Shown here: one piece after another, positions 2 through 20,040 of the stretch
How positions within the stretch are numbered: the first letter of the stretch is position 1
How the letters are laid out: the number at the start of each line of letters is the position of its first letter
Source: Caulobacteraceae bacterium
GTDB taxonomy: Bacteria > Pseudomonadota > Alphaproteobacteria > Caulobacterales > Caulobacteraceae
Assembly (NCBI GenBank): GCA_947452365.1
Contig: CANGCO010000008.1
Span: 1-62,322 of the forward strand
Reading direction: 5' to 3'
Length of the DNA stretch: 62,322 nucleotides
The notes under the pieces: model-generated
What the model saw: the letters and a program-made list of their open reading frames with translations, nothing else
Told to the model about the DNA's origin: nothing
Database searches by the model: none
Translations under genes and position numbers: made by a program

Positions 2-997
2 CCGCCCATCCTACGTGATCGCCTTCGTCTGCCGGTTATCGCCTCGCCCCTGTTCATTATCTCGACGCCGGACCTGGTGATTGCCCAGTGCAAGGCCGGC
101 ATTGTCGGCTCTTTCCCGTCCCTGAATGCACGCCCTGTCTCCTTGCTCGACGAATGGCTGCACCAGATTCGTGAAGAATTGGCCGCTTGGGACCGCGACC
201 ATCCAGAAGCGCCCTCGGCCCCGTTTGCGGTCAATCAGATCGTCCACAAGACCAATAATCGCCTCGATGAGGATGTCGAGCTATGCGTCAAGCACAAGGT
301 GCCGGTGATCATCACCTCGCTCGGCGCGCGCGAAGACATTAATCAGGCGGTTCGGTCCTATGGCGGCATCACCCTGCACGATATTATCAATAACAAGTTC
401 GCGCGTAAGGCCGTGGAAAAGGGCGCAGATGGCCTGATCGCCGTGGCGGCGGGCGCCGGTGGTCATGCTGGCACGCTTTCGCCGTTTGCCCTGATCCAGG
501 AAATCCGCGAATGGTTTGATGGTCCCTTGGCCTTGTCCGGCTCGATCGCCAGTGGCGCAGCAATCTTGGCCGCCCAGGCCGCGGGTGCGGATCTGGCCTA
601 TATTGGCTCGGCCTTTATCGCCACCAAAGAAGCCAATGCCGATCAGGGCTATAAGGACATGATTGTGGAGTCGGCTGCCGACGATATTGTCTATTCTAAC
701 CTGTTTACGGGCGTGCACGGCAATTATCTCAAGCCCTCCATCGTCAAGGCTGGCCTTGATCCCGAAAACCTGCCCGTCAGCGATCCGTCCAAGATGAATT
801 TTGGCTCGGGTGGCAATCAAGAAGCCAAGGCCTGGCGCGATATCTGGGGCTGCGGCCAGGGGATTGGCGCAGTCAAGGACCTGCAGTCCGTGGCTGAGTT
901 TGTCGCGCAATTGTCAACGCAATATGAGGCGGCCAAGGCCGATCTTTCGGCCAAGACCAGCTTGACCGCCGGGCATAAACTGGCGCTTAGCGCCTAG
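2..997 (+). CDS. nitronate monooxygenase / 2-nitropropane dioxygenase family, 5'-partial
   Basis: FMN-dependent oxidoreductase of the nitronate monooxygenase (NPD/FabK-like TIM barrel) family, expected to oxidise alkyl nitronates in the cytosol. The frame is open from base 2, so the start lies before the window. The GTG at 77 is unlikely to be the start, because the residues before it (LPVIASPLF, then PDLVIAQCKAGIVGS) already read like the usual N-terminal strand. Later motifs are GADGLIAVAAGAGGHAG (phosphate/FMN loop) and LAYIGSAFIATKEA. The C-terminal third (HGNYLKPSIV) is typical of the long form. The family is clear, the true substrate is not. It ends 31 bases before a strong hairpin. Confidence 0.88.
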   Translation, partial: PPILRDRLRLPVIASPLFIISTPDLVIAQCKAGIVGSFPSLNARPVSLLDEWLHQIREELAAWDRDHPEAPSAPFAVNQIVHKTNNRLDEDVELCVKHKVPVIITSLGAREDINQAVRSYGGITLHDIINNKFARKAVEKGADGLIAVAAGAGGHAGTLSPFALIQEIREWFDGPLALSGSIASGAAILAAQAAGADLAYIGSAFIATKEANADQGYKDMIVESAADDIVYSNLFTGVHGNYLKPSIVKAGLDPENLPVSDPSKMNFGSGGNQEAKAWRDIWGCGQGIGAVKDLQSVAEFVAQLSTQYEAAKADLSAKTSLTAGHKLALSA

Positions 998-1028
998 TAA
1001 TCCCCTCTCGTTCAACTGAGGGCTAAGC

Positions 1029-1074
1029 TCTCCCCGGCAATAGGTGATTTTCACCGTTTCCGGGGAGATTTTTT
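1029..1074 (+). terminator. strong two-tier hairpin with T-run, abutting a start codon
   Basis: A perfect 9-bp stem, TCTCCCCGG at 1029-1037 with CCGGGGAGA at 1060-1068, encloses an inner 5-bp stem GGTGA (1043-1047) / TCACC (1051-1055). Six T residues follow (1069-1074). This is the shape of an intrinsic terminator for the upstream monooxygenase gene. The T-run ends exactly at the GTG start codon at 1075, and the only plausible ribosome site for that gene (GGGGAG, 1062-1067) is the 3' arm of the stem. Confidence 0.85.
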
Positions 1075-2553: not shown

Positions 2554-2618
2554 GGCCGGTTTTGCCCTAATCTGTTTGGCATGACCGGGATGGATCCGGC
2601 CAGATGCGAGGACCGATT

Positions 2619-3017
2619 ATGATCCGACTTGGCCTGATCTATGGCGCAAGCTTGGCCACCTATCTGGGGCTGGACTTTCTTTGGCTCACACTGGCCGGAG
2701 GCCTTTATCGGGCCGAGATCGGCGCCTTGATGCGGCCTGTGCCGAATATCACGGTGGCCGGTGTGTTTTATCTGCTCTATGCGGCGGGTATAGTTGTATT
2801 TGCCGTGCGGCCGGGCAATCTTGGCCAAGGCCTTGTTCAGACGGCCTTATTGGGCATTTTCCTAGGCCTTATGGCCTATGGCACTTATGACCTAACCAAT
2901 TGGGCGGCGTTTGAGGGCTATTCCGCCAAGATCGCCCTGATCGATCTGGTCTGGGGCAGTCTCTTGACCGGATTATGCGCCTTGGCAGGCCGATTGGTCG
3001 CCGCGCGCCTGACCTAG
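2619..3017 (+). CDS. DUF2177 family membrane protein
   Basis: 132 residues, four predicted transmembrane segments: about 3-22 (YGASLATYLGLDFLWLTLAG), 45-64, 74-95 and 105-128. The pattern LDFLWL near the N-terminus, FYLLYAAGIVVFAV in the middle and a charged loop with TYDLTNWA match DUF2177, a small inner-membrane family of unknown function. I chose ATG 2619 over ATG 2604 because GAGG at 2608-2611 sits at ribosome-site distance from it. The stop TAG shares its bases with the stop of the convergent acyltransferase gene: CTAG at 3014-3017 is both stops. Confidence 0.8.
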   Translation: MIRLGLIYGASLATYLGLDFLWLTLAGGLYRAEIGALMRPVPNITVAGVFYLLYAAGIVVFAVRPGNLGQGLVQTALLGIFLGLMAYGTYDLTNWAAFEGYSAKIALIDLVWGSLLTGLCALAGRLVAARLT

Positions 3018-4126
3018 GCGGCTTTTGCCATCTTGGGCCTTTTTGCCCAGCGCCCCAGCGCCATCGAAGGCTTCTCGATCCAGCGATACGATAGCTGCGC
3101 GGCGATTAAGGATAGGCCCACCGTCGCTGCGATCAGGACCCCTAAGGGGGCCTTTCCGGAAAACAGGTGAAATACGGTTAAGAGCACGGGCAGATGCAGC
3201 AGATAAAGGCTGTAGGACACCTTACCGAGCCAGGTCAAAGCCTTGCCCGACAAGACCTTAACCAGAGTTGCCGATCCAAAGGCGGCTATGACATAGAGCA
3301 TGGCCGCGAGCCCCGTAGCCCAAAGGCTGAGGACGGGCAGGGTCCGCGGTAGGAAGAACAAATATCCGCCGAGGATGACGGCCGCCACACTGGCCCAAGG
3401 CCCGGTCTTGGCCATCCAGATGCTTATGGTCTGGTTCTTGAGATAGAGCAGGGTTCCGGCCGCAAACATAACGCCATACTGGACCGTGCCGCACAGGGTT
3501 TGGACCAGAGGTGACAGGCCGCCTTGTGATAGGGCAAGGTTCGCGCCTGCGCTCAAGATCGCGGCGATCATCAGGGTCAAGGCTGGCCGGGCGCGCATGC
3601 CAAAAAAGATCAGCGGAAAAATCATCGATATGCGTAATTCGTGGACCAGGCTCCACATTACATTGATCAGGCTCATATCGCGGTGCTGGTCGGTCATTAG
3701 CAAATGCCCCGCCAGCATGGCCGGAGCCACCGGATAGGCCCAGGACTGGGCATTGAACCAGCCGCTTAAGGCCGCGATCGGCTGGGGCTGAACCAGCAGG
3801 TAAAGCCCTGCTGACATAAATACGGCAAGGGCAAACGGCGGATAGATACGCAAGAATCGCTTGGCGGCAAATCGGCCATAGTCAAATCCGACCGGGTCCT
3901 TAGCGAGGCCTGACTGGATCGAGGCCGCCAGCACAAACCCGCTCAAGACAAAAAACAGCAAGACTGCGCCGGGGCCGTCGACCAAGAGCCGCAAGGGCGT
4001 CGCCGTCATCCACCAGGCGACCGAGCCGTGACCGCGCGCACTGGCAGGCAGGGTGAGCAGGCAATGGTGAAAGACCACGGCAAGGGCTGCCAGTCCACGT
4101 AAAGAATCTAGAGATTTAAAGCGCAT
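3014..4126 (-). CDS. acyltransferase 3 family membrane protein (OafA/YrhL-like)
   Basis: 370 residues from ATG 4126, with about ten hydrophobic segments. The start MRFKSLDSLRGLAALAVVFHH carries the family's SLRG and the catalytic-region His (VFHH). Also seen are RFLRIYPPFALAVF (R-x10-R region) and a C-terminal SYSLYLLHLPV. Such integral membrane proteins O-acylate (often O-acetylate) cell-surface sugars, LPS or peptidoglycan; the substrate here is unknown. The frame stays open upstream to 4285, but that extension only reads through the tRNA-Thr gene, so it is not coding. Stops overlap the convergent DUF2177 gene by four bases. Confidence 0.88.
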   Translation of the reverse strand: MRFKSLDSLRGLAALAVVFHHCLLTLPASARGHGSVAWWMTATPLRLLVDGPGAVLLFFVLSGFVLAASIQSGLAKDPVGFDYGRFAAKRFLRIYPPFALAVFMSAGLYLLVQPQPIAALSGWFNAQSWAYPVAPAMLAGHLLMTDQHRDMSLINVMWSLVHELRISMIFPLIFFGMRARPALTLMIAAILSAGANLALSQGGLSPLVQTLCGTVQYGVMFAAGTLLYLKNQTISIWMAKTGPWASVAAVILGGYLFFLPRTLPVLSLWATGLAAMLYVIAAFGSATLVKVLSGKALTWLGKVSYSLYLLHLPVLLTVFHLFSGKAPLGVLIAATVGLSLIAAQLSYRWIEKPSMALGRWAKRPKMAKAA

Positions 4127-4649: not shown

Positions 4650-5939
4650 ATGGACAAGATTGCCATTATCGGGGGAGAGCGCCTGTTTGGGGAAATCCCG
4701 ATCAGCGGGGCCAAGAATTCGGCGATCAAACTGATGGCGGCCAGCCTCTTGACCGACCAGCCCTTGCGCCTGACCAATATGCCGCGCCTGGCCGATACGC
4801 GCTTTTTGGGCCGCCTGTTGCAAAGGCTGGGTGCTGAACTGATCGAGCGCGATGGGCCAGACGGCTCAGAGACGGTCTTGCACACCCCCGAAATCCTCGG
4901 CGCGATTGCCCCCTATGATCTGGTGCGCCAGATGCGGGCCTCGTTCAATGTGCTGGGTCCCCTGATTGCCCGCACCGGCCATGCCAAGGTGTCCTTGCCG
5001 GGCGGCTGTACCATCGGTGCACGCCCTGTGGATCTGCATCTCAAGGCCTTGGAGGCGCTCGGCGCCCAGATTGACCTGCATGAGGGCTATGTCTTTGCCC
5101 AGGCCCCACGTGGCCTGCGCGGCGCTGAAATCACCTTTCCCTTTGTCTCGGTCGGGGCGACCGAGCATGCCATGCTGGCGGCCGTATTGGCTGAGGGCGT
5201 GACGGTCCTGTATAATGCCGCTTGCGAGCCTGAAATCGGTGACCTGGCCGATTGTCTGACCATGATGGGGGCCAAGATTGAGGGCAAGGGCACCTCGACC
5301 CTGGTCATTACCGGCGTAACCCGGCTCGGCGGCGGGACCCATTCGGTGATTGCCGACCGGATCGAGACCGGCACCTATGCCGTGGCCGCCGCCATGGCCG
5401 GCGGTGAGGTGCGCCTGACCAAGACCCAGTCTGGCTTTATCCAGAGCCTGCTCGACTTGATGGTTAAGGCCGGTGTTGGGGTCGAGCCTACACCAGACGG
5501 TATGATTATCCGCCGCGGTGAGGGCCGATTAGAGGCGGTTGATGTGCATACTGATCCCTTTCCCGGCTTTGCCACTGACCTTCAGGCCCAGTTCATGGCC
5601 CTGATGACCACGGCGCGGGGCGAGAGTGTGATCCGCGAAACCATTTTCGAAAACCGCTTCATGCATGCGCCGGAATTGGCGCGGCTAGGGGCTGAAATTT
5701 CGGTGCATGGCGGCGAGGCGCGCGTCACCGGGGTTGATCGCCTGAACGGGGCTGAGGTCATGGCGACCGATCTTCGCGCCTCTGTGAGTTTGGTCATCGC
5801 AGGCTTGGCCGCCAAGGGCGAAACCGTCGTCAACCGGGTCTATCATCTGGACCGAGGTTTTGAGCGGCTGGAAGAGAAACTGGGGGCCTGCGGGGCTCAG
5901 GTGCGCCGGATCAAGGGCGCGGCATCGGACGAGGGCTAG
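4650..5939 (+). CDS. murA: UDP-N-acetylglucosamine 1-carboxyvinyltransferase MurA
   Basis: 429 residues, full length. First committed step of peptidoglycan synthesis in the cytosol: enolpyruvyl transfer from PEP to UDP-GlcNAc. Visible landmarks are [12 protein letters not shown] (Lys22, substrate contact), the loop [16 protein letters not shown] with the catalytic, fosfomycin-target Cys120, and the C-terminal [12 protein letters not shown] with the active-site Asp. Residue spacing equals that of well-known MurA enzymes. The stop TAG at 5939 is one base from the ATG of the following DUF2948 gene (5941), so the two are probably translationally coupled. Very sure. Confidence 0.98.
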
Positions 5940-5940
5940 A

Positions 5941-6375
5941 ATGTCGACGGATCAGGGTTCATTGCGCCTTTTGGCGGAAGACGCCGAGGACCTAGCCGTG
6001 ATCTCTGCGGCCCTGCAAGATGCTGTCGGGCTTGTCGGCGACATGGCCTTTGATGCCAAGACCCAGCGCCTGACCTTGGGCCTGAACCGGTTTCGCTGGG
6101 AAAACGGCGTGCGGGCCAAGGAGCGGGTCCGCACCGGCCTGCAATTTGGCAGTGTCCTGAGCGTCCAGACCAAGAATCTGCGGCGGGATGCCAAGGCCGC
6201 CGTGGTCGAATTGCTAGCCGTGCAATTTGAACCGGGCGAGGCCCCGGGCGGGGTGGTGCATCTGGTCTTTGCTGGCGGCGGTGATCTGCGAGCGCAAGTC
6301 GAGTGCATTGATGTCATTGCCGCCGATCTGTCTGCGCCCTGGCCAACCCCGCGCAGGCCTGGCCACAAGGCCTGA
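5941..6375 (+). CDS. DUF2948 family protein
   Basis: 144 residues from ATG 5941, directly behind murA. The pattern LRLLAEDAEDLAVISAALQD near the start, FRWE (residues 46-49), and a C-terminal IDVIAADLSAPWP is characteristic of DUF2948, a cytosolic alphaproteobacterial family of unknown function that is regularly found between murA and hisD. That order is kept here. The frame is open further upstream inside murA, but the murA C-terminus makes 5941 the sensible start. No catalytic motif is visible; the role is unknown and the coupling to murA is positional evidence only. Confidence 0.85.
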   Translation: MSTDQGSLRLLAEDAEDLAVISAALQDAVGLVGDMAFDAKTQRLTLGLNRFRWENGVRAKERVRTGLQFGSVLSVQTKNLRRDAKAAVVELLAVQFEPGEAPGGVVHLVFAGGGDLRAQVECIDVIAADLSAPWPTPRRPGHKA

Positions 6376-6465
6376 TCAAGGCGCCGTTTCATCAAGCCTG
6401 TTTAATTGGGCTAAAGCGGCCTATATCCGCCCTCTCCACTGACCCTTCTGGCTTGAGTGTTTGTC

Positions 6466-7743
6466 ATGCGCCGTTTCAACGTGTCCGATCCGGGATTTGA
6501 GGCTGAATTTGCTGCCTTTCTCGATGCCCCGCGCGGATCACCGGCCCAGGTCGATTCAGCCGTGGCGGCGATTGTTGAGGCGGTTAGGGCCGAGGGCCTG
6601 CCAGCCGTCTTGCGCTTTGCCGAACAATTTGATCACGCGGCCCTGACTGAGACGACCTTGCGCGTCACCGCCGACGAGATCGAGGCCGGAGCGGCTGCCT
6701 GTCCGCAGGCGGTGCGAGACGCTATCGATTTTGCCGCCGACCGTATCCGCACCTATCACGCCCGCCAGCGCCCCGCTGATGCGCAATGGGTGGACGAGAC
6801 CGGCACAGAGCTTGGCTGGCGCTGGACGCCTTTGGAGGCGGTTGGGATCTATGTGCCGGGTGGCCGGGCCGCCTATCCCTCGACTGTGCTGATGAATGCC
6901 GTGCCAGCCCAGGTGGCAGGCGTTGATCGGATTGCCATGGTCACCCCACCAGGCAAGCTGCAACCGGCCGTACTGGCGGCGGCCAAGGCCGCTGGGGTGA
7001 GCGAGATCTGGCGTCTGGGTGGTGCTCATGCGGTGGCAGCCCTGGCCTATGGCGCGGGCCCGATTGCGCCGGTCGACAAGATTGTCGGTCCCGGCAATGC
7101 CTTTGTGACCGCCGCCAAGCGCAGACTGTATGGCGTGGTGGGCATTGATGCCCTGGCGGGTCCTTCAGAGATTGTCGTGGTTGCCGATGGGGCTAATAAT
7201 CCAGACTGGATCGCCGCTGACCTTTTGTCCCAGGCCGAACATGACCCCGCCGCTCAATCCATACTGATTACCGACGACGGTGCCTTTGCCGATGCGGTTT
7301 GCGCGGCGATTGAGGCGCAATTGAAAACCCTGGCCACGGGCGAGGATGCGGCAGCCTCTTGGCGCGATTATGGGGCGGTCATCCTGTGCCCGCTAGACGA
7401 TAGCCCACGTCTGGTCGACCAGATCGCACCCGAACATGTCGAGTTTGCGGTTGAGCAGCCGCAAGCCTTGTCCGACCGGGTGCGCCATGCCGGGGCCATT
7501 TTCCTTGGCCGTCATGCGCCAGAAGCGATTGGCGATTATGTCGCCGGGTCCAACCATGTCCTGCCAACCAGCCGCGCTGCCCGATTCAGTTCTGGCCTGT
7601 CCATCTATGATTTCTTGAAGCGGACTTCCCTGATCCGCTGTGATGCGCAAGCCTTTGAAAAGCTGGCTGGTGCGACCATTGCCCTGGCCGAGGCCGAGGG
7701 TTTGCCTGCCCATGCAAGATCAGCGGCGATCCGGCTTGGCTAG
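6466..7743 (+). CDS. hisD: histidinol dehydrogenase HisD
   Basis: 425 residues from ATG 6466 ([15 protein letters not shown]); a GTG three codons earlier is less likely. Catalyses the last two oxidations of histidine synthesis, L-histidinol to L-histidine, with NAD and zinc. Seen: the NAD region [57 protein letters not shown] (zinc-binding His), PEHVEF and the end [11 protein letters not shown]. Length matches the family. It follows murA-DUF2948 with a 90-base gap. The stop TAG shares CTAG (7740-7743) with the stop of the convergent ygfZ gene. Confidence 0.97.
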
Positions 7744-9621: not shown

Positions 9622-10955
9622 CCCAGACCTTTGACCTGATCGTGCGCGGCGGCGTCCTGGTTAATCATGCAGGCCGGGGCCTTGCGGATATTGGCGTGCG
9701 CGGTGGCAAGATTGTGGCTGTGGGCGATCTGGGCCAGGCCTTTGCCGATCAGATCTTTGATGCCACGGGCCTGACCATCCTGCCCGGCGTCATAGACAGT
9801 CAGGTGCATTTTCGTGAGCCGGGCCTGGAATGGAAAGAAGACCTTGAAACCGGCTCGCGCGGTGCAGTCCTTGGCGGCGTCACCGCCGTGTTTGAAATGC
9901 CCAATACCGAGCCGACCACGACCGATCCTGACGCCCTCATGGATAAGCTCAGCCGCGCCAAGGGCCGCATGCATTGTGATCATGCCTTTTATGTCGGCGG
10001 CACCCACGACAATACCGCATTCTTAGGCGAGATGGAGCGCCTGCCCGGCTGTTGCGGCATCAAGGTGTTTATGGGGGCCTCGACCGGCTCGCTATTGGTG
10101 GCTGATGATGCCGGCGTTGAGGCCGTCTTGCGCAATATTTCGCGCCGGGCAGCGTTTCATTCTGAAGATGAATATCGCCTAGCCGAGCGCAGGTCTTTGG
10201 CCCGCACAGGCGACTGGACCAGCCATCCCGAGGTGCGGGACCCGCAAACCGCGATCCAGTCGACCGAGCGTCTGGTCTCGATCGCCAAGCGGCTGGGTAA
10301 GCGCATTCATGTGTTGCACGTCACCACGGCTCAGGAAATCGACTTTTTGGCCAAGCACAAGGATGTCGCCAGTGTCGAGCTGACACCGCAGCACCTGACC
10401 CTGGTCGGGCCAGAGGCCTATGAGGACCTCAAGGGCTTTGCCCAGATGAACCCACCGATCCGCGATGCCTCGCACCAGCCGGGCCTATGGCGCGGGATCA
10501 CTATGGGGGTTGCCGATGTCATGGGCTCTGACCATGCGCCGCATACGCGCGAGGAAAAGGCCAGGCCCTATCCCGCCTCGCCATCGGGTATGCCCGGCGT
10601 CCAGACCCTGGTGCCGATCATGCTGACCCATGTCGCCAATGGCCGTTTGACGCTGGAGCGGTTTGTGGACCTGACCTCGCATGGTCCGCAGCGTGTGTTC
10701 GGTCTGGCCGATAAGGGCCGGGTGGCTGAGGGTTATGATGCAGACCTGACCATTGTCGATTTGAAGGCGCGCAGGACCATTAGCCATGGTCAGATGGCCA
10801 CCCGCTCGGGCTGGACCCCGTTTGACGGGTTTGAGGCCCAGGGCTGGCCGATTGCAACCATCATCCGTGGACAGATTATCATGCGCGATGATGAAGTGAT
10901 TGCTCAGGGCCAGGGCGCGCCGGTGCGCTTTAACGAAACCTTGGGCGAGGCTTAA
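9618..10955 (+). CDS. dihydroorotase-like amidohydrolase (class I PyrC family)
   Basis: 445 residues. Cyclic amidohydrolase of the dihydroorotase/allantoinase group. Seen: LPGVIDSQVHFREPGL, FEMPNTEPTTT, GIKVFMGASTGSLL (with the Lys often carboxylated), FHSEDEYRLAERR, HVLHVTTAQEI and MGSDHAPHTREEK with the catalytic Asp and metal His. The first metal-binding His of the usual H-x-H-x-R motif is replaced by Gln62 (Q-x-H-x-R); I recall this in other alphaproteobacterial members. It may be the housekeeping pyrimidine enzyme or a paralogue. Starts within the glycosyltransferase stop (ATGA); SD AAGGGAT. Confidence 0.85.
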   Translation: MTQTFDLIVRGGVLVNHAGRGLADIGVRGGKIVAVGDLGQAFADQIFDATGLTILPGVIDSQVHFREPGLEWKEDLETGSRGAVLGGVTAVFEMPNTEPTTTDPDALMDKLSRAKGRMHCDHAFYVGGTHDNTAFLGEMERLPGCCGIKVFMGASTGSLLVADDAGVEAVLRNISRRAAFHSEDEYRLAERRSLARTGDWTSHPEVRDPQTAIQSTERLVSIAKRLGKRIHVLHVTTAQEIDFLAKHKDVASVELTPQHLTLVGPEAYEDLKGFAQMNPPIRDASHQPGLWRGITMGVADVMGSDHAPHTREEKARPYPASPSGMPGVQTLVPIMLTHVANGRLTLERFVDLTSHGPQRVFGLADKGRVAEGYDADLTIVDLKARRTISHGQMATRSGWTPFDGFEAQGWPIATIIRGQIIMRDDEVIAQGQGAPVRFNETLGEA

Positions 10956-10985
10956 GGCCCCAGCGAGGGCAAGGATACGAATAGC

Positions 10986-12776
10986 ATGGGTGGTTTGGTC
11001 GATATTGGCTCTGCGCCGTTTCGTGATGCGCGCTATGGCCCGCGTCAGGTGGTGGTCGAGCGCCTGGCCGATGGTGGCTTGGTCATGACCAATACCACGC
11101 CGGTGGTCACTAAGGACCTAACCATGACGGCGGCGCTGGAGCGGTGGGCAAGCCTTGATCCAGACCGCCTCTGGCTGGCCCAAAGGGCGGGGGAGGGCTG
11201 GGCGCATTTAAGCTATGGCGATGGCGCGGCCAAGGTTGCCGCGATCGCGGGTGGCTTGGCGGCCCTGGGTCTTGAACGCGGCCAGCCGCTCTTGATCCTG
11301 GCCCGCAATAGTATTGACCAGGCACTGATCTCTTATGCCGCCATGAGTCTGGGCGCGCCGATCGCGCCGGTCTCGCCGCAATATGGGCTGGCGGGCGCGG
11401 ATCTTTCGCGGCTGGCCTATGCTGTGGACCTGATCAAGCCAGCGGCGGTCTATGTCGATGACGCCATGGCCTTTGCCGGGGCCCTTGACAGTCCAGCCCT
11501 TGCGGGCTTGGCCGTTATTGCCAGCCAGAATGCACGGCCCAGCGACCTTCGGCTTGCCGACCTGGCCATGTCATCACCAAAACCAGCGACCGCGGTGACT
11601 GGCGATATTGCCAAGCTTTTACTGACCTCTGGCTCCACGGGCAAGCCCAAGGCCGTCATAGGCCTGCATAGCAATATCTGCATCAATGCCGCCCAGATTG
11701 CTGCCTGCTATAATGACACTGACCCGCCGATTGTGGTCAATGCCGCGCCTTGGAGCCATAGTCTCGGGGCCAATGCGATCTTGCACATGATCACCCATCG
11801 CGGCGGCAGCCTCCATATCGATACTGGCCAGCCAATACCCGGGCGGTTTGAGGAAACCTTGCGCAATCTGCGTGAGATTGCCCCGACCTATCACAATATG
11901 GTCCCGGCCGGTTGGGGCCTGTTCGTGGGCGCCTTGGAACAGGATGAGGCCTTGGCGCGGACGTTTTTCTCGCGCGTTCGGGTCCTGCAATATGGCGGGG
12001 CCAATCTGGCGCAAAGCATTTGCGACCGCATCCAGGCCGTGGCCGTGCGCCTGACCGGCGAGCGGCTGACCTTTGCCACTGGCTATGGCTCGACCGAGAC
12101 CGGGCCGACCGCGAGCAATATTCATTGGCTGAATGACCGTACCGGCATGTGTGGCCTGCCTGTGCCCGGAACCTCGGTCAAGCTGGCGCCCGAGGGCAAT
12201 AAGTTCGAAATGCGGGTCAAGGGCCCCCAGGTCTCGCCCGGTTATTATGGCGCGCCAGAGCTGTCGGCCAAGGCGTTTGATGAGGACGGCTTTTACAAGC
12301 TGGGCGATGCGGCCCGCTTGCTGGATGAGGCGGACCCTGAGGCGGGTTTGGTGTTCGATGGCCGTCTGGTTGAGAATTTCAAGTTGGCATCGGGCACATT
12401 TGTCGCGGCGGGCACCTTGCGCATTGCCGCGGTCTCGGCCATTGGCGGCGCGGTTTCAGACGCTGTGGTCTGCGGCGAGGGGCAGGCGGGTGTTGGCCTT
12501 CTGCTATTCCTGAATGGGCCATACTGTGCCCAACTGGGTGACGATGCGGCCGTCCGGGATGCGATCTGGGCTGGGCTCGAAAAAATGAATGCCCAGGCCA
12601 AGGGCGGCGGTGGCAAGATTGCCCGGGCCATAATCTTGACCGATGCGCCTGACCCGATCTCGGGCGAGATTACCGATAAGGGCTATATCAATCAGGCCCT
12701 GTCGCGCCAAATCCGTTCGGCGTCCGTCGAGCGGCTGTTTGCTGATCATCCGGATACGGATGTCCTTTGTTTTTGA
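10986..12776 (+). CDS. AMP-binding acyl-CoA ligase, feruloyl-CoA synthase-like
   Basis: 596 residues. ANL-superfamily ligase: activates a carboxylate to an acyl-AMP and then to its CoA thioester. Seen: the P-loop-like LLLTSGSTGKPKAVIGLHSN, the A5-type GYGSTETGPTASN, and KLGDAARL followed by FDGRLVENFKLASGTF. The N-terminal FRDARYGPRQVVVER and the VENFKLASGTFV linker are what I know from feruloyl-CoA synthases, which start side-chain removal from hydroxycinnamates. No hydratase/lyase (ech) or vanillin dehydrogenase partner is next to it, so the substrate is uncertain. SD AAGGA. Same strand as, and 21 bases before, the ThDP enzyme. Confidence 0.82.
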   Translation: MGGLVDIGSAPFRDARYGPRQVVVERLADGGLVMTNTTPVVTKDLTMTAALERWASLDPDRLWLAQRAGEGWAHLSYGDGAAKVAAIAGGLAALGLERGQPLLILARNSIDQALISYAAMSLGAPIAPVSPQYGLAGADLSRLAYAVDLIKPAAVYVDDAMAFAGALDSPALAGLAVIASQNARPSDLRLADLAMSSPKPATAVTGDIAKLLLTSGSTGKPKAVIGLHSNICINAAQIAACYNDTDPPIVVNAAPWSHSLGANAILHMITHRGGSLHIDTGQPIPGRFEETLRNLREIAPTYHNMVPAGWGLFVGALEQDEALARTFFSRVRVLQYGGANLAQSICDRIQAVAVRLTGERLTFATGYGSTETGPTASNIHWLNDRTGMCGLPVPGTSVKLAPEGNKFEMRVKGPQVSPGYYGAPELSAKAFDEDGFYKLGDAARLLDEADPEAGLVFDGRLVENFKLASGTFVAAGTLRIAAVSAIGGAVSDAVVCGEGQAGVGLLLFLNGPYCAQLGDDAAVRDAIWAGLEKMNAQAKGGGGKIARAIILTDAPDPISGEITDKGYINQALSRQIRSASVERLFADHPDTDVLCF

Positions 12777-12797
12777 TCTTCTGAGCTGGAGCCTCTC

Positions 12798-14339
12798 ATG
12801 AACGGTGCCGATGCCCTGATCCAGACCCTGGCCGATAATGGCGTCGAGGCTTGTTTTGCCAATCCCGGCACCAGCGAAATGCAATTTGTTGCGGCCTTGG
12901 ATCGCGAGCCGCGCATGCGGGCAGTGCTGTGCCTATTTGAAGGCGTGGCCACGGGGGCGGCCGATGGCTATGGGCGTATGACGGGCAAGCCTGCCGCGAC
13001 CCTGCTGCATCTGGGGCCTGGCTATGCCAATGGCGGGGCTAACCTGCATAATGCCAGGCGGGCCGGCACGCCCGTAGTCAATGTGATCGGCGACCATGCC
13101 ACCTATCACCGCCAATATGATGCACCACTCAATTCCGATATTGCCGCCTGGGCCAAGGCCAATTCCAACTGGGTCGGGTCAGCCGAAACTGCCGATCAGG
13201 TTGGCGATCTGACCGCTCAGGCCGTCGCCGCCAGTTTTGGCCCGCCGGGCGGCTGTGCCAGCCTGATCCTCCCCGCCGATAGCGCCTGGACCGAGACCGA
13301 CAAGCGCGGGCCCCAAATCACTGTGCCGCCCAGACCCGTCCCAACCAAGGCCGTGATTATAGAGGCTGCGGCGCGGTTAAAAGCGGCTAAACAGCCAGTC
13401 ATACTGATCGGCGGAACGGCTTGCGGCGAGGCAGGTCTTGCTGCTGCCGGACGGCTCAAGGCCGCGGGCGTGCGGGTCCTGATCGATACGTTTGTGGCCC
13501 GCCAAGCGCGCGGGGCGGGCCGGTTCCTGCCAGACCGCATGCTGTATTTTGGCGAAATGGCGATCAAGGATCTGGCCGGTTCTGACCTGATGGTCCTGGT
13601 CGAGACCGCCTTGCCAGTATCCTTCTTTGCCTATCCCGATATGCCCAGCGTCTTGGTGCCGGAGGGCTGCGCGGTCGAGACCTTGGCGGATAAGGCTAAG
13701 GACGGGGTTGCCACCCTAATTGCTCTGGCCGATGCCATGGACGCACCAGCCTCTGGCGACCTAACAGTGTTAGATTTGCCTGACGCGCCCAAGGGCGAGT
13801 TGAATGCCTATACGATTGGGGATTCCATTGCCCGGCATATGCCAGACCATGCGGTGATTTCTGACGATGCGGTGACAGCGGGCCTGCCCATCTATACCCA
13901 GACCGCGAGGGCGCGGGCGCATGAATGGTTGATGCTGACCGGCGGGGCGATCGGTCAGGGGATTCCCGTGGCGATTGGGGCCGCCATTGCCTGTCCCGAG
14001 CGCAAGGTCTTGTCCCTGAATGGCGATGGCGCGGCCATGTATACGGTTCAAGGACTTTGGACCATGGTTCGCGAAGACCTCGATGTCACAGTGGTGGTGT
14101 TTGCCAATCATGCCTATCGCATCCTCAATATCGAATTTGCGCGCACGGGCTCTGGCAGGCCGGGGCCAGCGGCGCGCGCCCTGCTCGATCTGGGTTCTCC
14201 GCGCATAGATTGGGTCGCGCTCGCCAGTGGCATGGGCATGAAGGCGGTATCTTGCGACACGGCTGAGGCGTTTGATGCCGCCATGGCCGAGGCCATGACG
14301 CAAAAGGGCCCACGCATGATTGTCGCGGCCCTAGCCTAA
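12798..14339 (+). CDS. ThDP-dependent enzyme, acetolactate synthase large-subunit-like / benzoylformate decarboxylase-like
   Basis: 513 residues with the three-domain thiamine-diphosphate fold. Seen: N-terminal NPGTSEMQFV and LFEGVATGAADGYGRM (the Glu that protonates ThDP), central Rossmann-like domain near residues 190-330, and the ThDP-Mg motif GDGAAMYTVQGLW ... VFANHAYRILN. At 513 residues it lacks the length of true acetolactate synthase, and no small regulatory subunit (ilvH) follows. Annotation pipelines often call this group acetolactate synthase; a 2-keto acid decarboxylase or ligase role is equally possible. Probably co-transcribed with the acyl-CoA ligase. Confidence 0.82.
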   Translation: MNGADALIQTLADNGVEACFANPGTSEMQFVAALDREPRMRAVLCLFEGVATGAADGYGRMTGKPAATLLHLGPGYANGGANLHNARRAGTPVVNVIGDHATYHRQYDAPLNSDIAAWAKANSNWVGSAETADQVGDLTAQAVAASFGPPGGCASLILPADSAWTETDKRGPQITVPPRPVPTKAVIIEAAARLKAAKQPVILIGGTACGEAGLAAAGRLKAAGVRVLIDTFVARQARGAGRFLPDRMLYFGEMAIKDLAGSDLMVLVETALPVSFFAYPDMPSVLVPEGCAVETLADKAKDGVATLIALADAMDAPASGDLTVLDLPDAPKGELNAYTIGDSIARHMPDHAVISDDAVTAGLPIYTQTARARAHEWLMLTGGAIGQGIPVAIGAAIACPERKVLSLNGDGAAMYTVQGLWTMVREDLDVTVVVFANHAYRILNIEFARTGSGRPGPAARALLDLGSPRIDWVALASGMGMKAVSCDTAEAFDAAMAEAMTQKGPRMIVAALA

Positions 14340-14348
14340 CCAACAAAA

Positions 14349-14376
14349 AGCCCGCCGAGGTTTCCCCCGGCGGGCT
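14349..14376 (-). terminator. intrinsic terminator of the 4-Cys repeat gene
   Basis: AGCCCGCCG (14349-14357) pairs with CGGCGGGCT (14368-14376) around a 10-base loop. On the minus strand the stem runs into TTTTTGTTG, a proper U-tract, so it terminates the gene that ends at 14401. On the plus strand it lies ten bases after the ThDP-enzyme stop but lacks a T-run, so action there is less sure. Confidence 0.85.
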
Positions 14377-14400
14377 GATACTTAGTCCATAGGCAAGCGC

Positions 14401-15750
14401 CTATTTGGTATTGCCTGGCAGCTTGCAGCCATCACCAATCGACTTGGCTTGGGTGCAGCTGAGCACCGATTTGGTTTCGTCGGTTCCAATCGCATATTCC
14501 AAAACCCAGCCGGGCAGGCCGTCCGAGCAGGCGACTTCGAGGAATTCAGATGTTTCGGCGCGGCCAATGGCACGGGCATTGGAAACTGTGCAGCTGGCCT
14601 TACCCTTGGCCTTGAGCGCCGTGGTCAAAAGCGGATAGGCCGCTTCTGCCTTGGAGAAGCTACAGCGATAACCGGCCAATGGCGCGCGGGCGCAGTTTAG
14701 GATCTGGGCCTTGGCACCGGCTGCGGTTGGGAAGATGGCCACACCGCCATCTTCACGGTTCTTACAGGCCAGTTCGACGACTTCCTTGTCATTGCCCTGA
14801 ACCGGGAAGGCGGCATATTTGGCCACGTCGCAATTAAAGCCAGCCTTTTTGGCAAGGCTGGAATAGAGGCCAGCTTGCTGGGTTTCGGCCTCGCGCGCAT
14901 CGGTTAGGGTACAGCCGCCACCGACAAAGCTTGCATCGGCGCACTTAATCGACTTGGCCAGATTATCGCCCTTGACCTGCATCATATAGCCTTCGCCGGT
15001 CTTACAAGCGATTTCGTAATAGTCCGATCCGTCGACCGTCGACAGCACATAGCGCATGTCGGATGGCTCGCAACCCTTGGCTACCTTGGTGCTCAGGGCC
15101 TTGATCGGGGCGATATTCTGCTCTGGCGTGGATAGGAGGCACTTTTGACCGGACTGTTCGAAGGTTATGCAGTTCATGCTGCTCACCTTGCGGTCCGCCG
15201 TAGCGGGCAGGGCAGCGGTCAAAACCATGCCCGCACCAGACTGGCAGGCCAGTTCATAATACACATTGGCTGAGCTCTGGCCGATATAACGGGCCTTGGC
15301 GATCGGGCAGGCCTTGCCGGTCTTGGCGACCATGGGCTGCAGGCCGGCTTCTGGATTGGCATTGCCAGGCAGGGCGCAGGCCAGCGAATTCTTTTTTGGC
15401 TTGCCGTCTGGGCCGACCACATCGGCCGAGGTGGCAACGCAGTCAAAGGTCAGGGGCGTAGAGCCATCCGACATGCCCTGAACGATATAGCCAAGGCCTT
15501 CGCTACAGGCGACTTCGAAAAAGGCGGTCGTGACCTTGGCCCCGTCCTTTTTGGTGTCGGACTGACCAATAAAGCGGGCATCGGTCAGGGTACAGCCGAG
15601 GCCGGCCTTGGCGATAATGGCCGGGGCCTTTTCCATGCCAGCCTTGCGCGTAGCAGGCGGTATGGCTTCAGCAGCTGGTTTTGCCGCAAGGGCAGGGGAC
15701 GCAATCGCAAGGACAAGCGCAGCGACCAGTCCCAATCCATATGGCCTCAT
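14401..15750 (-). CDS. exported protein of five tandem 4-cysteine repeats, family not recognised
   Basis: 449 residues from ATG 15750 (SD AGGAGT). A Sec signal peptide (hydrophobic 5-20, cleavage near ALA at 21-23) points to the periplasm or outside. The mature part holds exactly 20 cysteines in five modules of about 80 residues: Cys 53/82/104/125, 148/169/194/204, 227/249/270/280, 307/329/353/363, 387/408/432/442. Each module reads C-x4-6-AR[FY]IG-like, then [VLI]AC-x2-G, then a C, then ten residues to a fourth C (21 in module 1). Two disulphides per module are likely. I do not recognise the domain; a binding or structural envelope role is only a guess. Own terminator follows. Confidence 0.85.
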   Translation of the reverse strand: MRPYGLGLVAALVLAIASPALAAKPAAEAIPPATRKAGMEKAPAIIAKAGLGCTLTDARFIGQSDTKKDGAKVTTAFFEVACSEGLGYIVQGMSDGSTPLTFDCVATSADVVGPDGKPKKNSLACALPGNANPEAGLQPMVAKTGKACPIAKARYIGQSSANVYYELACQSGAGMVLTAALPATADRKVSSMNCITFEQSGQKCLLSTPEQNIAPIKALSTKVAKGCEPSDMRYVLSTVDGSDYYEIACKTGEGYMMQVKGDNLAKSIKCADASFVGGGCTLTDAREAETQQAGLYSSLAKKAGFNCDVAKYAAFPVQGNDKEVVELACKNREDGGVAIFPTAAGAKAQILNCARAPLAGYRCSFSKAEAAYPLLTTALKAKGKASCTVSNARAIGRAETSEFLEVACSDGLPGWVLEYAIGTDETKSVLSCTQAKSIGDGCKLPGNTK

Positions 15751-15993
15751 AAAATCCACTCCTGGGGTATTGTGTGCAAAGATTGTTATTGGCGCGCAGC
15801 TTAAGCCTGCTTGCGCCGACTTGGTCAAGTTTGCGCATCAAATTGGTCTGAATATGTCGCATGGCTTTGACAGGTTTTGCGCCTTGGTGCGCGCTTCTAG
15901 GCTGGACCGCCGCGGCGATAAGCGCCATGGGTGGAGGCAAGAGTCCAGTGCGCGGCTTTGGTTTAGCGCACAGTTTAAGGAGCCAAGGGTTAT

Positions 15994-17064
15994 ATGCAGG
16001 ACGGTACCCCCGACAATCCCGCCGATATTAACGAGCGCCGCCCGGCCCTGACCTATCCGTTTGAAAGCCCGCCCGCAGACGGCGAGACGGTCGAGATCGC
16101 GCCGGGCGTGCTGTGGATTCGGATGGCCCTGCCATTTGCCCTGGCCCATATCAATCTTTGGGCGATCCGCGATGGCGAGGGCTGGGCAATTGTCGATACC
16201 GGGGTCCAGACCCGCGAAACCGCGGCGGCCTGGCGTCAAATCTTTGCCGGCCCGCTTGGCGGCCTGCCTGTGACCCGTGTTTTCGTGACCCATATGCATC
16301 CAGATCATGTCGGCATGGCCGGCTGGATCACGCGTAAATTTGATTGCCGCCTTTGGATGAGCCGATTGGAATATGTCACCTGCCGGGTATTGGCCGCCGA
16401 TACGGGCCGTGAAGCCCCCGAAGATGGTGTGCGCTTTTACCGTGCCGCAGGCTGGGATGAGGATGCGATCGAAACCTATAAGGCAAGGTTTGGCGGCTTT
16501 GGCAAAGGCGTGCATGCCTTACCGGACAGCTATAAGCGCCTGTCTGATGGCGATGAGATCCAGATTGGCGACGATATGTGGCGCATTGTGGTGGGCTCGG
16601 GCCATTCGCCTGAACACGCTTGCCTCTATTGCGAAGAGCGTAAGCTGTTGATTTCGGGCGATCAGGTCCTGCCCAAGATCTCATCCAATGTTTCGGTGTT
16701 CCCGACCGAGCCCGAGGGCGATCCCTTGAGTGATTGGCTTAGCTCCCTAGCCAAGATCAAGGCCCAGGTGCCGGACGATGTCTTGGTTTTGCCTTCGCAT
16801 AATGAACCGTTTTATGGCCTGCATGCCCGGCTCGATCACCTGATCCGTGGTCATGAGCGGGCCTTGACGCGTCTGACCGCGGCCTTGGCCGAGCCCAAGC
16901 GCAGTATTGACGTGTTCGGGTCCTTGTTTGCGCGTAAGATCGGGCCTGAGGTGCTGGGCATGGCGACGGGCGAGAGCCTGGCGCATCTCAATTGCCTTGT
17001 GGGTCGGGGCCTTGCTGTGGTCGAGCCCGACGCCGAAGGTACCTATTGGTATCGTCAAGCTTGA
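15994..17064 (+). CDS. MBL-fold metallo-hydrolase
   Basis: 356 residues. Metallo-beta-lactamase fold with the zinc motif THMHPDHVGMAG (H-x-H-x-D-H), the third-strand His in GSGHSPEHACLY, the bridging Asp in LLISGDQVLPKIS and the late His in LPSHNEPFYGLH. A C-terminal helical extension follows from about residue 285 (HERALTRLTAALAEPKRS). This architecture is common in bacterial hydrolases of unknown substrate, some acting on acyl-CoA or lactone esters. No signal peptide is seen, so it is cytosolic. Start ATG 15994 behind AAGGAGCC. The 243 bases between it and the divergent 4-Cys repeat gene hold no clear promoter motif that I could fix. Confidence 0.88.
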   Translation: MQDGTPDNPADINERRPALTYPFESPPADGETVEIAPGVLWIRMALPFALAHINLWAIRDGEGWAIVDTGVQTRETAAAWRQIFAGPLGGLPVTRVFVTHMHPDHVGMAGWITRKFDCRLWMSRLEYVTCRVLAADTGREAPEDGVRFYRAAGWDEDAIETYKARFGGFGKGVHALPDSYKRLSDGDEIQIGDDMWRIVVGSGHSPEHACLYCEERKLLISGDQVLPKISSNVSVFPTEPEGDPLSDWLSSLAKIKAQVPDDVLVLPSHNEPFYGLHARLDHLIRGHERALTRLTAALAEPKRSIDVFGSLFARKIGPEVLGMATGESLAHLNCLVGRGLAVVEPDAEGTYWYRQA

Positions 17065-17158
17065 GGTTTTCCATTTCGCCCGGCTAGATCGATCTGGGTC
17101 TTGACGGACAGTTTTGCGCGCTAGATTGTTTCAGTGACGGTGTTTGGGAGCAGGGATT

Positions 17159-18157
17159 GTGAACGATAACAAGTCGGATTTGTTGCGGTCCTTAAGCATT
17201 GACCGCACCCAATCCCAAACCCAAGCCACGCGCTCGCCGATTGGGGTCAGTGCCATTGCGATTGCGATTGTTGCCAGTCTTGGAATTGGCGCTTCGATCG
17301 GTTGGATCGCAAAGCCTAGGCCCAAGCCCGTTGTCGCGGCACCGCCCGTCGATTCAGCCCAGCGCCCGGTGAGGGCCAGTGGCCTAACCGCGTCTGGCTA
17401 TGTTGTTGCCCGCGCCCGCGCCACGATTGCCGCTGAGGTTACCGGTCGGGTGGTCGACGTCAGGGTCGAGGAAGGCCAGGTCGTGCGGGCAGGTGATATC
17501 TTGGCTGTGCTCGATGGCACGATTGCCAATGCGGATAGCCAGACTGCTCAGGCGCGTCAAAAGTCTGCCGAGGCCTCGGTCGCGGCCGCCCAAGCCGGTG
17601 CCGACGAGGCGCAAAAGGCGTTTGTTCGCGCCAGGTCACTGTCCGCATCCGGCTATGCCAGCGATGCCAATTTACAGGCCGCGACCGCACGGACCCAGTC
17701 GGCCCAGGCCCAGTTGGATCTGGCCCGTGCGCAGCTGGGCGCAGCACGCTCTGACGCAAACCGCGCCAGCCTGCAATTGGGCAAATTTGTCATTCGTGCA
17801 CCGTTTTCGGGTGTGGTGATCGACAAGGCCGCCCAGGCCGGTGAAATCATCTCGCCCCTATCGGCTGGCGGTGGTTTTACCCGCACGGGTATCTGCACCA
17901 TTGTCGATATGGACAGTCTCGAGATCGAGGTCGATGTGAATGAGGCCTATATTGGCCGCGTTACGGCTGGGCAAAAGGTCGAGGCTGTGTTGGATGCCTA
18001 TCCCGACGCGGTGCTTCCGGCCCATGTGATTGCGACTATTCCTGCCGCCAGCCGAGACAAGGCCACGGTGCGGGTTAGGATTGCGTTTGACGGCAAGGAT
18101 GTTCGCACCTTGCCGGATATGGCCGTAAAGGTCACCTTTGTCGAAAAACCAGCCTGA
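17159..18157 (+). CDS. HlyD/MacA-type periplasmic adaptor of an ABC exporter
   Basis: 332 residues from GTG 17159 (SD GGGAGCAGGG). One N-terminal transmembrane helix (about 32-52, AIAIAIVASLGIGASIGWIA) anchors it in the inner membrane. Then comes a split lipoyl/barrel-sandwich domain (TASGYVVARARATIAAEVTG; second half FSGVVIDKAAQAGEIISPL), a helical hairpin of Ala/Gln/Arg-rich heptads (130-200), and a beta-barrel domain (EIEVDVNEAYIGRVTAGQKV). It would join the transporter to an outer-membrane channel. Next genes are an ATPase and two FtsX-like permeases, so this is a MacAB/DevBCA-like exporter. Substrate unknown. Confidence 0.9.
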   Translation: MNDNKSDLLRSLSIDRTQSQTQATRSPIGVSAIAIAIVASLGIGASIGWIAKPRPKPVVAAPPVDSAQRPVRASGLTASGYVVARARATIAAEVTGRVVDVRVEEGQVVRAGDILAVLDGTIANADSQTAQARQKSAEASVAAAQAGADEAQKAFVRARSLSASGYASDANLQAATARTQSAQAQLDLARAQLGAARSDANRASLQLGKFVIRAPFSGVVIDKAAQAGEIISPLSAGGGFTRTGICTIVDMDSLEIEVDVNEAYIGRVTAGQKVEAVLDAYPDAVLPAHVIATIPAASRDKATVRVRIAFDGKDVRTLPDMAVKVTFVEKPA

Positions 18158-18181
18158 TCGCGGCTAGAACCGGAGCCCCGC

Positions 18182-18874
18182 ATGTCCGATTTCATCAAGC
18201 TGACCAATGTCACCAAGACCTATACCCGTGGCAAGGAATCCATCAGCATTTTTGACAAGCTGACCCTGTCCATTCCCAAGGGTGATTTTGTCGCCATTAT
18301 GGGCCCGTCGGGGTCTGGCAAGACCACCTTGCTCAATCTGCTCGGCGGCACGGACCGCTGTGATAGCGGCGAGATCGTGTTTGATGGCGAGCATATTGAG
18401 GGCTATTCGGAAGGCCAGCTTGCGGCTTGGCGGGCGCGCAATGTCGGGTTTATTTTTCAGTTTTATAATCTGATGCCGGTCTTGACCGCAGCACAGAATG
18501 TTGAATTGCCTTTGATGCTGACCTCGCTGACCTCGCTGCCCTCGCAAAAGCGCAAGGACAATGTCGCAACGGCCTTAAAGATTGTCGATCTATCGGATCG
18601 GGCTGGGCACAAGCCCAAGGAATTGTCGGGTGGTCAACAGCAGCGCGTGGCAATTGCTAGGGCCATAGTCTCGGACCCTAAATTTCTGCTCTGTGATGAG
18701 CCGACAGGGGATCTCGACCGCGCCACGGCCAATGACATCCTAAAGACCTTGCAGCAGCTTAATCGCGAACTGGGCAAGACCATTATCATGGTCACCCACG
18801 ACCCCGAGGCGGCGCGCTTTGCCACCCGCACCCTGCACCTAGATAAGGGCCAATTTGTCGAGGTGACGTCGTGA
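18182..18874 (+). CDS. ABC transporter ATP-binding protein (MacB/LolD type)
   Basis: 230 residues. Walker A GPSGSGKTTLLNLLGG, Q-loop in FIFQFYNLMPVLTA, ABC signature LSGGQQQRVAIARAI, Walker B FLLCDEPTGDLD and H-loop VTHDPEAARFA are all intact. The FYNLMPVLTAAQNVELPL stretch is typical of mechanotransmission-type ATPases that work with FtsX-like permeases. SD GGAG before ATG. Its last four bases overlap the GTG start of permease 1, so the operon is adaptor - ATPase - permease - permease. The odd insertion LTSLTSLPSQKR after the Q-loop is somewhat longer than in LolD. Confidence 0.94.
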   Translation: MSDFIKLTNVTKTYTRGKESISIFDKLTLSIPKGDFVAIMGPSGSGKTTLLNLLGGTDRCDSGEIVFDGEHIEGYSEGQLAAWRARNVGFIFQFYNLMPVLTAAQNVELPLMLTSLTSLPSQKRKDNVATALKIVDLSDRAGHKPKELSGGQQQRVAIARAIVSDPKFLLCDEPTGDLDRATANDILKTLQQLNRELGKTIIMVTHDPEAARFATRTLHLDKGQFVEVTS

Positions 18875-20040
18875 CCGATTTCGATCTGGTTTGGAAAAAC
18901 CTGTTTCGCAGGCCGCTGCGCACGGGTCTATTGATCGTCTCAATCTTTATTGCCTTCCTGATTTTTGGCCTGCTGGTCAGCGTTAATGTTGCGCTTGAGC
19001 GTTCGTCCAATAGCGGTACGGCGAGCAATCGTTTGGTGGTCGCCAACAAGATCAATTTCACCCAACCCATGCCGATCGCCTATGTCAATCAGGTCGCGAC
19101 CATCAAGGGGGTAACGGCGGTCACGCATTTTAGCTGGTTTGGCGCCTATTATCAGGACCAGACCAAGAGCCGGTTTGTCGGCTTTGCCGTCGATCCTGCC
19201 ACCTATACCGCCATTTATTCTGATCAGATTAAGCTGGGCCCAGGCCAGCGCGAGGCCTTTATCAAGACCCGCGACGGGGTGATTGTCGGCAAGGCCTTGG
19301 CGGAAAAATATGGTTGGCGCCTTGGCCAGGTTATTCCGATCAGTTCCAATATCTATATCAAGCCAGATGGCGGCCGCGCATTGGACATGCGGGTGGTGGG
19401 CATTTTTTCCGGCGCTAAGCCTGATGATCCAACCACGGCGCTCTATTTCAACTATGAATATTTGAATGAGAGCCGGACGTTTGGCAGAGACCAGATTGGG
19501 ACCATAGGCGTGGTCACCGCCTCACCCGATTTGAACGATGCCGTGGCCAAGGCGATTGATGCCCGGTTTGCAAACTCGCCTTATGAGACCGCCACAGTCG
19601 ACGAAAAGACCTTTCAGCGGGCGTTTCTGAAGCAGGCTGGTGATCTGAACTTCATCATTACCATGGTGGTGGCCGCGGCCTTTGCCGCGATCTTAATGAT
19701 TGTCGGAACAACCTTGGTATCTGCGGTGCGCGAGCGGACCAAGGAGATTGGGGTGATGAAGACGCTTGGCTTTCCAGGGCCGCGCGTCCTGCGCATGGTG
19801 CTCGGCGAGTCCATCCTATTATCGGGACTTGGCGGCGGCCTAGGCCTGGGTGTGGCGGCCCTTATGTTAAAGGGCCTGTCAAAATCGGCCATGGGGGCCA
19901 GCTTTGGTGACCTGTCCATGGACTTAAGCGTCGCCTTGGTTGGGATCGTCTTGGCCTTATTGCTGGGCCTGGTGACCGGCCTTATCCCGGCCCTGTCTGC
20001 CCTTCGCATGAACATTATCGACGCCCTCGGTCGGCGATAG
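18871..20040 (+). CDS. FtsX-like ABC transporter permease 1
   Basis: 389 residues. One transmembrane helix near the N-terminus (FRRPLRTGLLIVSIFIAFLIFGLLV), a periplasmic MacB-type domain (about 45-255), and three C-terminal helices (about 265-285, 310-335, 350-375) in the FtsX arrangement. The segment RERTKEIGVMKTLGFPGPRVLRMV is the cytoplasmic coupling region that contacts the ATPase. GTG start inside the ATPase stop. It likely forms a heterodimer with permease 2, since both are encoded once in this operon. Expected to push a substrate from the periplasmic side rather than to import. Confidence 0.9.
   Translation: MTDFDLVWKNLFRRPLRTGLLIVSIFIAFLIFGLLVSVNVALERSSNSGTASNRLVVANKINFTQPMPIAYVNQVATIKGVTAVTHFSWFGAYYQDQTKSRFVGFAVDPATYTAIYSDQIKLGPGQREAFIKTRDGVIVGKALAEKYGWRLGQVIPISSNIYIKPDGGRALDMRVVGIFSGAKPDDPTTALYFNYEYLNESRTFGRDQIGTIGVVTASPDLNDAVAKAIDARFANSPYETATVDEKTFQRAFLKQAGDLNFIITMVVAAAFAAILMIVGTTLVSAVRERTKEIGVMKTLGFPGPRVLRMVLGESILLSGLGGGLGLGVAALMLKGLSKSAMGASFGDLSMDLSVALVGIVLALLLGLVTGLIPALSALRMNIIDALGRR

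Follow-up and report, generated by a model that had tools for sequence, protein, structure and literature searches.

A predicted exported protein of five homologous four-cysteine modules, near-universal in and nearly exclusive to the Caulobacteraceae

Introduction

Several described systems come close to the protein considered here. The cystatin/monellin-like fold (monellin MNEI, phytocystatin, HRG) consists of a helix and a four-stranded antiparallel sheet, as is predicted for the present module. PepSY (PF03413) is likewise a small alpha+beta module and occurs in the same genomes as the present protein. BLIP, with its tandem alpha+beta inhibitor domains binding beta-lactamase, may resemble it too. 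The Spi protease inhibitor Inhibitor_I69 (PF13734) gives weak matches to some members of the family, and beta-propellers (WD40-type, Photorhabdus lectins) appear among the structural matches to the full-length model.

The locus described here differs from each of these. No sequence relation to the cystatin/monellin group was found, and the module is nearly confined to one bacterial family. The 12 copies of PepSY which were read contain no cysteines, whereas every module of the present protein carries four. Inhibitor_I69 was not found in 58 of 66 proteins of the family, and the protein of the window gave no match to it at E ≤ 10. Unlike the propellers, the full-length model has helices between its sheets.

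The gene and its signals

The window, by which we mean the whole stretch of 62,322 nucleotides that was analysed, is the eighth contig of a genome of 2.59 Mb. An initial annotation had placed an exported protein at 14401-15750. These positions are exactly one open reading frame including its stop codon and lie on the minus strand, which had been left unstated; the ATG is at 15750, the stop at 14401-14403, and the product (the window protein) has 449 aa. Approximately residues 1-23 (15682-15750, minus strand) have the appearance of a Sec-type signal peptide with a basic start, a hydrophobic core and an ALA-A cleavage region. This was judged by eye, and the structure model has low confidence in residues 1-26. 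The look of the N-terminus supports the signal peptide that had been claimed, and the protein is probably exported. A regular-expression search of the window protein gave no lipobox, and no membrane anchor was seen in the sequence. The other signals claimed earlier could be located. A Shine-Dalgarno sequence AGGAG (15759-15763, minus strand) stands 8 nt before the ATG, and 3' of the gene, between it and a convergent gene, there is an intrinsic-terminator-like hairpin (14349-14376, minus strand) whose 12 pairs, read from 14376 to 14349, are followed by TTTTG.

A promoter-like sequence, TTGAC-N17-GCTTAA, was recognized at 15801-15828 (minus strand) by comparing patterns across related loci. The pattern TTGAC-N17-GCT[AT] was derived from the window and five same-genus loci, which consequently are not independent. 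It is present upstream of the gene in 30 of 64 related loci, where 0.36 is expected from plain base shuffles, and in 25 of 59 after removal of the five loci from which it was read, many of the remaining loci being closely related to one another. In 34 of the 64 loci it was not found, and a general sigma-70 scan gave no promoter in 14300-16100. The box with its fixed spacing would fit steady expression from a housekeeping-type promoter.

The GC content is 0.58-0.63 throughout 12000-18000. A mobile-element origin was considered and rejected on the even GC content and the lack of plasmid, phage, PADLOC or PHROGs matches, and an RNA element was rejected as there is no Rfam match in 12000-18000.

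Five homologous modules

The window protein was said to contain exactly 20 cysteines in five sets of four, and a count gives this number and this arrangement. All modules are encoded on the minus strand. Module 1 lies at 15373-15660 (residues 31-126; cysteines 53, 82, 104 and 125), module 2 at 15136-15372 (residues 127-205; cysteines 148, 169, 194 and 204), module 3 at 14908-15135 (residues 206-281; cysteines 227, 249, 270 and 280), module 4 at 14659-14907 (residues 282-364; cysteines 307, 329, 353 and 363) and module 5 at 14410-14658 (residues 365-447; cysteines 387, 408, 432 and 442). The spacings are those given before, 21-29 for C1-C2 and 21-25 for C2-C3, and the C3-C4 spacing, earlier described as mostly 10, is exactly 10 in modules 2-5 and 21 in module 1. 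The reported period of about 80 corresponds to C1-to-C1 distances of 95, 79, 80 and 80. The two motifs said to be shared by every module fared less well. With a loose regular expression the AR-x-IG-like motif and the [VIL]AC-x2-G motif are each found in four of the five modules, and module 4, the most divergent, is without both: it has LACKNR in place of the second and no AR-IG motif.

When each module in turn was left out of the HMM, modules 1-5 were recovered with 39.2, 45.2, 41.3, 27.3 and 46.9 bits, respectively, and the best score among 5 x 200 shuffled copies of the window protein was 9.2 bits. All ten pairs of modules align in hhalign with probabilities of 94.8-99.4%. The HMM recovery and the hhalign comparisons support the proposal of five homologous four-cysteine modules: they are true homologous repeats and not a product of chance.

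Distribution and module number

With a profile built from 66 proteins of the family, each of the 133 sampled near-complete genomes of the Caulobacteraceae (at least 90% complete, at most 5% contaminated) has a match, as have 146 of all 149 sampled genomes of this family, and the matches cover 22 of 22 genera. One match per genome was seen in 116 of the 146, two or three in the other 30. In a set of 60 sampled relatives, 35 of the 36 Caulobacteraceae match but none of the 24 genomes which represent four further families of the order; in a sample of the class the matching genomes were 5 of 385, four inside the family and one outside. The single-module profile found 11 of 398 genomes in a sample of the phylum and 41 of 200 in a sample of the order, all of them Caulobacteraceae. 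These samples overlap one another. The named relatives that carry the protein are Caulobacteraceae metagenome bins, followed by Caulobacter and Phenylobacterium. The protein is near-universal in, and nearly exclusive to, the Caulobacteraceae.

The copy outside the family (locus L190, contig 62 of genome G382; 206-1267, plus strand) has three modules, which score as positions 1-2-3. It is found on an 11 kb contig together with genes for the adenosyl-hopene transferase HpnH, an HpnG-like protein and squalene-hopene cyclase; the genome has a rated completeness of 95% and a contamination of 5%. Transfer, contamination or the remnant of a wider distribution are possible readings of this copy.

The number of modules varies. 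In a set of 116 distinct proteins, five modules are present in 91, three in 18, four in six and a single one in one; some of the short forms are partial, since contig ends truncate L025/L107, L101, L103 and L108. True four-module proteins are those of L029, L038 and L039, and there are 17 true three-module proteins. Of the 27 open frames whose number of modules is not five, 16 had their modules assigned to positions. Two four-module proteins of genus g15 (L029 and L039) score as positions 2-3-4-5, and the one of genus g16 (L038) as 1-2-5-5. In genus g2, 15 of 18 proteins have three modules, two have five (L167 and L168) and one has a single module. The middle module of ten g2 three-module proteins fits best as position 2 in all ten, while a clean 1-2-3 assignment was obtained in only three of them and the others are ambiguous. 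Among the proteins with five modules, a given position remains recognizable from one genus to the next, and for this reason the array of five probably predates most genera of the family. The shorter forms may be module losses.

Two side observations were made in g2 loci. In L034 (4461-7708) two three-module genes stand on either side of a gene for an MBL-fold protein (match at 5608-6615), as if a local duplication had taken place around a conserved neighbour. In L035 a single-module protein, an open frame with 7 cysteines, is encoded at 2422-3048 (minus strand) in a genome that also has two three-module proteins.

Conservation of cysteines and of one glutamate

Three alignments were used. The first (A1) holds the window protein and 21 relatives which are 28-95% identical to it, 22 of the 30 loci L002-L031 being used with P0001 standing for L002; all 20 cysteines are invariant in these 22 proteins. 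The second (A3) has 66 rows, made up of the window protein and 65 of 69 loci, with L101, L103, L107 and L108 omitted because they are cut by contig ends. Here 64 rows have exactly 20 cysteines, one cut row has 18 and one row has 21. The third (A4) consists of 30 of the 66 A3 proteins, chosen for diversity among those with exactly 20 cysteines, and the invariance of the cysteines within it is partly selected; the unselected figures are those of the first two alignments. In the 64 proteins with 20 cysteines a C3-C4 spacing of exactly 10 is seen in module 3 of 55 proteins, in module 4 of 61 and in module 5 of 47; it is 9-13 in module 2 and 10-21, mostly 17, in module 1.

When 150 modules are aligned, only five columns are invariant, namely the four cysteines and a glutamate three residues before C2. 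All 320 modules of the 64 rows with 20 cysteines have this glutamate, and so do all 607 modules detected by an HMM which, being built from cysteine-complete proteins, favours such modules; duplicate loci are counted in the latter number. With the same bias, none of the 607 modules has another residue at an aligned cysteine position, and C4 was left unaligned in 129 of them. After the cysteines and the glutamate the next-best position is a glycine five residues after C2, conserved in 97%. An arginine in the predicted strand neighbouring the glutamate is conserved in 67%, and no module has an equally conserved partner for the glutamate. The family-wide range, the variable number of modules and a glutamate as invariant as the cysteines are new compared with the initial annotation.

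Six within-genus pairs gave dN/dS values of 0.07-0.21, dS being near 1 in two of the pairs, and outside its genus the identity to the window protein is 28-53%. The computation shows the gene to be under purifying selection.

Comparison with known domains

A profile search assigning the modules to a known domain had been named as the result that would speak against their being undescribed. No such assignment was obtained in the profile libraries tested. The best Pfam match of the window protein has E 0.87 and 10.2 bits against a cut-off of 25, and NCBIfam, PADLOC and PHROGs gave no match to it. Against the PDB sequences the window protein reached a best E of 0.33, and the protein and module profiles gave nothing even at E 10. 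The 66 proteins have weak Pfam matches scattered over 11 families, the best at E 0.0018; the commonest of these is DUF5061, seen in nine of the 66 proteins with the same best E of 0.0018. The 150 modules have matches scattered over four families with a best E of 0.0071. No c-type cytochrome motif CxxCH occurs in the window protein. A literature search covering open-licence papers found no description of the protein, and nothing relevant was found for CC_0391-0396 and CCNA_00395-00400, the presumed range of locus tags near ccrM for the Caulobacter copy. As far as these tools can tell, the protein is apparently undescribed.

Predicted structure

The model of the full-length protein (pLDDT 86.8, pTM 0.57) shows the order helix then four strands, five times. 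The low pTM is as for beads whose mutual placement is uncertain. The prediction of one module, which had been suggested earlier as a check, was made for module 5 alone with the 150 modules as alignment, and gave a confident model (pLDDT 89.5, pTM 0.79) of a helix and a four-stranded sheet in the order H-E-E-E-E.

Foldseek of the single module against the PDB gave nothing at E ≤ 0.001. With VIA-align the best Z among the matches listed is 4.9; these best matches include monellins, with 69 of 83 residues superimposed at an rmsd of 3.5, and the N-lobes of small-molecule kinases tie with monellin at this value. Phytocystatin, the HRG cystatin domain and a designed cystatin fold follow lower in the range of 3.8-4.9. 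BLIP is absent from the 50 matches listed, which is uninformative. VIA-align itself warns that a Z this low may mean just a common arrangement, and the predicted module has a weak resemblance to the monellin and cystatin folds, Z being too low to claim the fold.

The full-length model was also compared with known structures by Foldseek, and beta-propellers were found with a best E of 5.6e-06. We set aside a propeller reading of these matches on query TM-scores of 0.10-0.15 with large rmsd in the 50 matches listed and on Z values under 5, the arrangement of the full-length chain being uncertain in the model. Matches of the same low TM were obtained in a library of viral folds. The propeller matches probably arise as both structures are a series of four-stranded meanders.

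Genomic neighbourhood

The divergent neighbour of the gene codes for an MBL-fold metallo-hydrolase (15994-17064, plus strand, PF00753) and the convergent neighbour for a thiamine-pyrophosphate enzyme of the acetolactate-synthase-like type (12798-14339, plus strand, NF005760). Among 65 testable loci of the 69, the MBL-fold gene is the divergent neighbour in 56, lies 2.8 kb away in one and is absent in eight; the gene for the thiamine-pyrophosphate enzyme holds the convergent place in 42 of 64 testable loci. Because both neighbours look cytoplasmic, we read this as a conserved gene order rather than a pathway.

Further along the window, at 17144-20040, an adaptor gene of the RND/HlyD type (by profile) is followed in a row by an ABC ATPase and an FtsX-like permease (both by eye), which probably form an ABC exporter operon. 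The copy of Caulobacter vibrioides DSM 9893 (L188, 7876-8952) lies about 16 kb from ccrM, a call whose best match, NF050803, is below the cut-off of that model. Two genes at 10949-12171 in the same locus are DsbA-like by eye.

Discussion

The model we favour hypothesizes that the gene codes for a steadily made, exported chain of disulphide-stapled beads which serves as a multivalent binding scaffold in the cell envelope, and we give it an even chance of being right. In each bead a single helix would pack against an antiparallel sheet of four strands. In the predicted structure C1 lies ahead of strand 1, C2 is at the end of strand 2, C3 comes after strand 4, and C4 is placed mostly about 10 residues beyond C3, except in module 1. 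As C1 and C2 sit at the same end of one hairpin, the simplest pairing would be two disulphides per module, C1-C2 and C3-C4. The two bonds would in this way staple one end of the bead, C1-C2 spanning the first hairpin and C3-C4 holding together the loop that follows strand 4; the invariant glutamate would lie in strand 2. Genes for a DsbA-like protein (PF13462) and DsbB (PF02600) are present in the genome of the window, and the model proposes that DsbA/DsbB oxidize consecutive cysteine pairs during the entry of the polypeptide into the periplasm. The completed protein, located either there or on the cell surface, would bind protein or polymer at several places and would not be an enzyme. The predicted arrangement is not outlandish: tandem disulphide-stapled extracytoplasmic beads are known, and no tested family contains this one. 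Some observations speak against this model. The predicted fold lacks a strong structural match, the promoter pattern was not found in 34 of the 64 loci, and the flanking genes code for enzymes of cytoplasmic type without an obvious connection to the protein, the MBL-fold gene being absent in eight and displaced in one of the 65 testable loci. One strictly invariant glutamate per module could also mean a catalytic or metal site.

Four other readings have to be weighed against the scaffold, which they overlap in part, and the likelihoods given need not sum to one. The beads could be cystatin-, PepSY- or Spi-like heads of a periplasmic inhibitor directed against a protease or a cell-wall hydrolase. 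Inhibitor domains in tandem, each with disulphides of its own, are known from other proteins, e.g., the kininogens, and the weak resemblance of the module to monellin and to the three cystatin structures would fit, as would the weak matches of eight of the 66 proteins to Inhibitor_I69 (E ≤ 0.1, best 0.0061). A genome search with Inhibitor_I69 found 0 of 100 genomes and also 0 in the controls, and is hence uninformative. The resemblance is, however, of the kind which kinase N-lobes score equally well and which may be a common arrangement. No cystatin family is among the listed Pfam matches of the 66 proteins (E ≤ 0.1) or of the 150 modules (E ≤ 0.01), and the cystatin QxVxG loop occurs in just two of the 66 proteins, once in each and at different places. 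Homology to PepSY was rejected, as 12 PepSY copies aligned by hhalign with the A4 alignment gave a probability of 0.5% and 1.4% in the two directions, where a reversed control gave 0.3% and module 3 against module 5 gave 99.4%. The positions of highest conservation are moreover the cysteines and one glutamate, and no variable inhibitory loop was identified. We judge an inhibitor to be unlikely. The same glutamate is what recommends a second reading, namely that every bead uses it in one of five equal sites for a cation, a sugar acid or a small molecule. Its presence in every module of the 64 rows stands against only 67% for the arginine of the neighbouring strand, and a simple Glu-Arg staple fails to explain it for that reason. 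Yet beyond the cysteines and the glutamate nothing is invariant, the next residue being the glycine at 97%, which is too little to define a complete site; a glutamate buried for structural reasons would give the same conservation. We judge such ligand or metal sites to be quite unlikely.

The two remaining readings concern the place and the chemistry of the protein. It might be a secreted component of the surface or matrix, associated with the holdfast, the S-layer or exopolysaccharide, and not a soluble periplasmic protein; the signal peptide, the repeat architecture and the moderate divergence outside the genus are what such a component might show. A protein present in every near-complete genome of the family is hardly tied to one surface organ, however, and neither anchor nor lipobox was seen in the sequence. 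In our judgement this is improbable. A redox protein or thiol buffer, in which the cysteines would cycle between reduced and oxidized forms against oxidative stress in the envelope, could be read from 20 invariant cysteines behind a signal peptide. But no two cysteines are closer than 10 residues, which leaves no CxxC, and they are at the ends of predicted strands, as for structural disulphides, and we hold this reading to be very improbable. The scaffold is favoured over all four.

A more far-reaching form of the scaffold model states that the module is new and arose near the root of the Caulobacteraceae, and that the glutamate next to the disulphide lets each bead of the chain bind the same envelope partner. 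We put this forward as a tentative and rather doubtful proposal. If it is true, the poly-bead scaffold would belong to the core of the Caulobacter cell envelope and would have escaped notice until now. The Caulobacteraceae include Caulobacter vibrioides/crescentus, which is among the best studied bacteria, and a protein carried by all 133 sampled near-complete genomes of the family, for which we could find neither a family model nor a paper, is a missing entry in the inventory of a model cell. Its modules also make a clean system for study: natural proteins have one, three, four or five beads, the four cysteines and the one glutamate can be changed, and the host is tractable.
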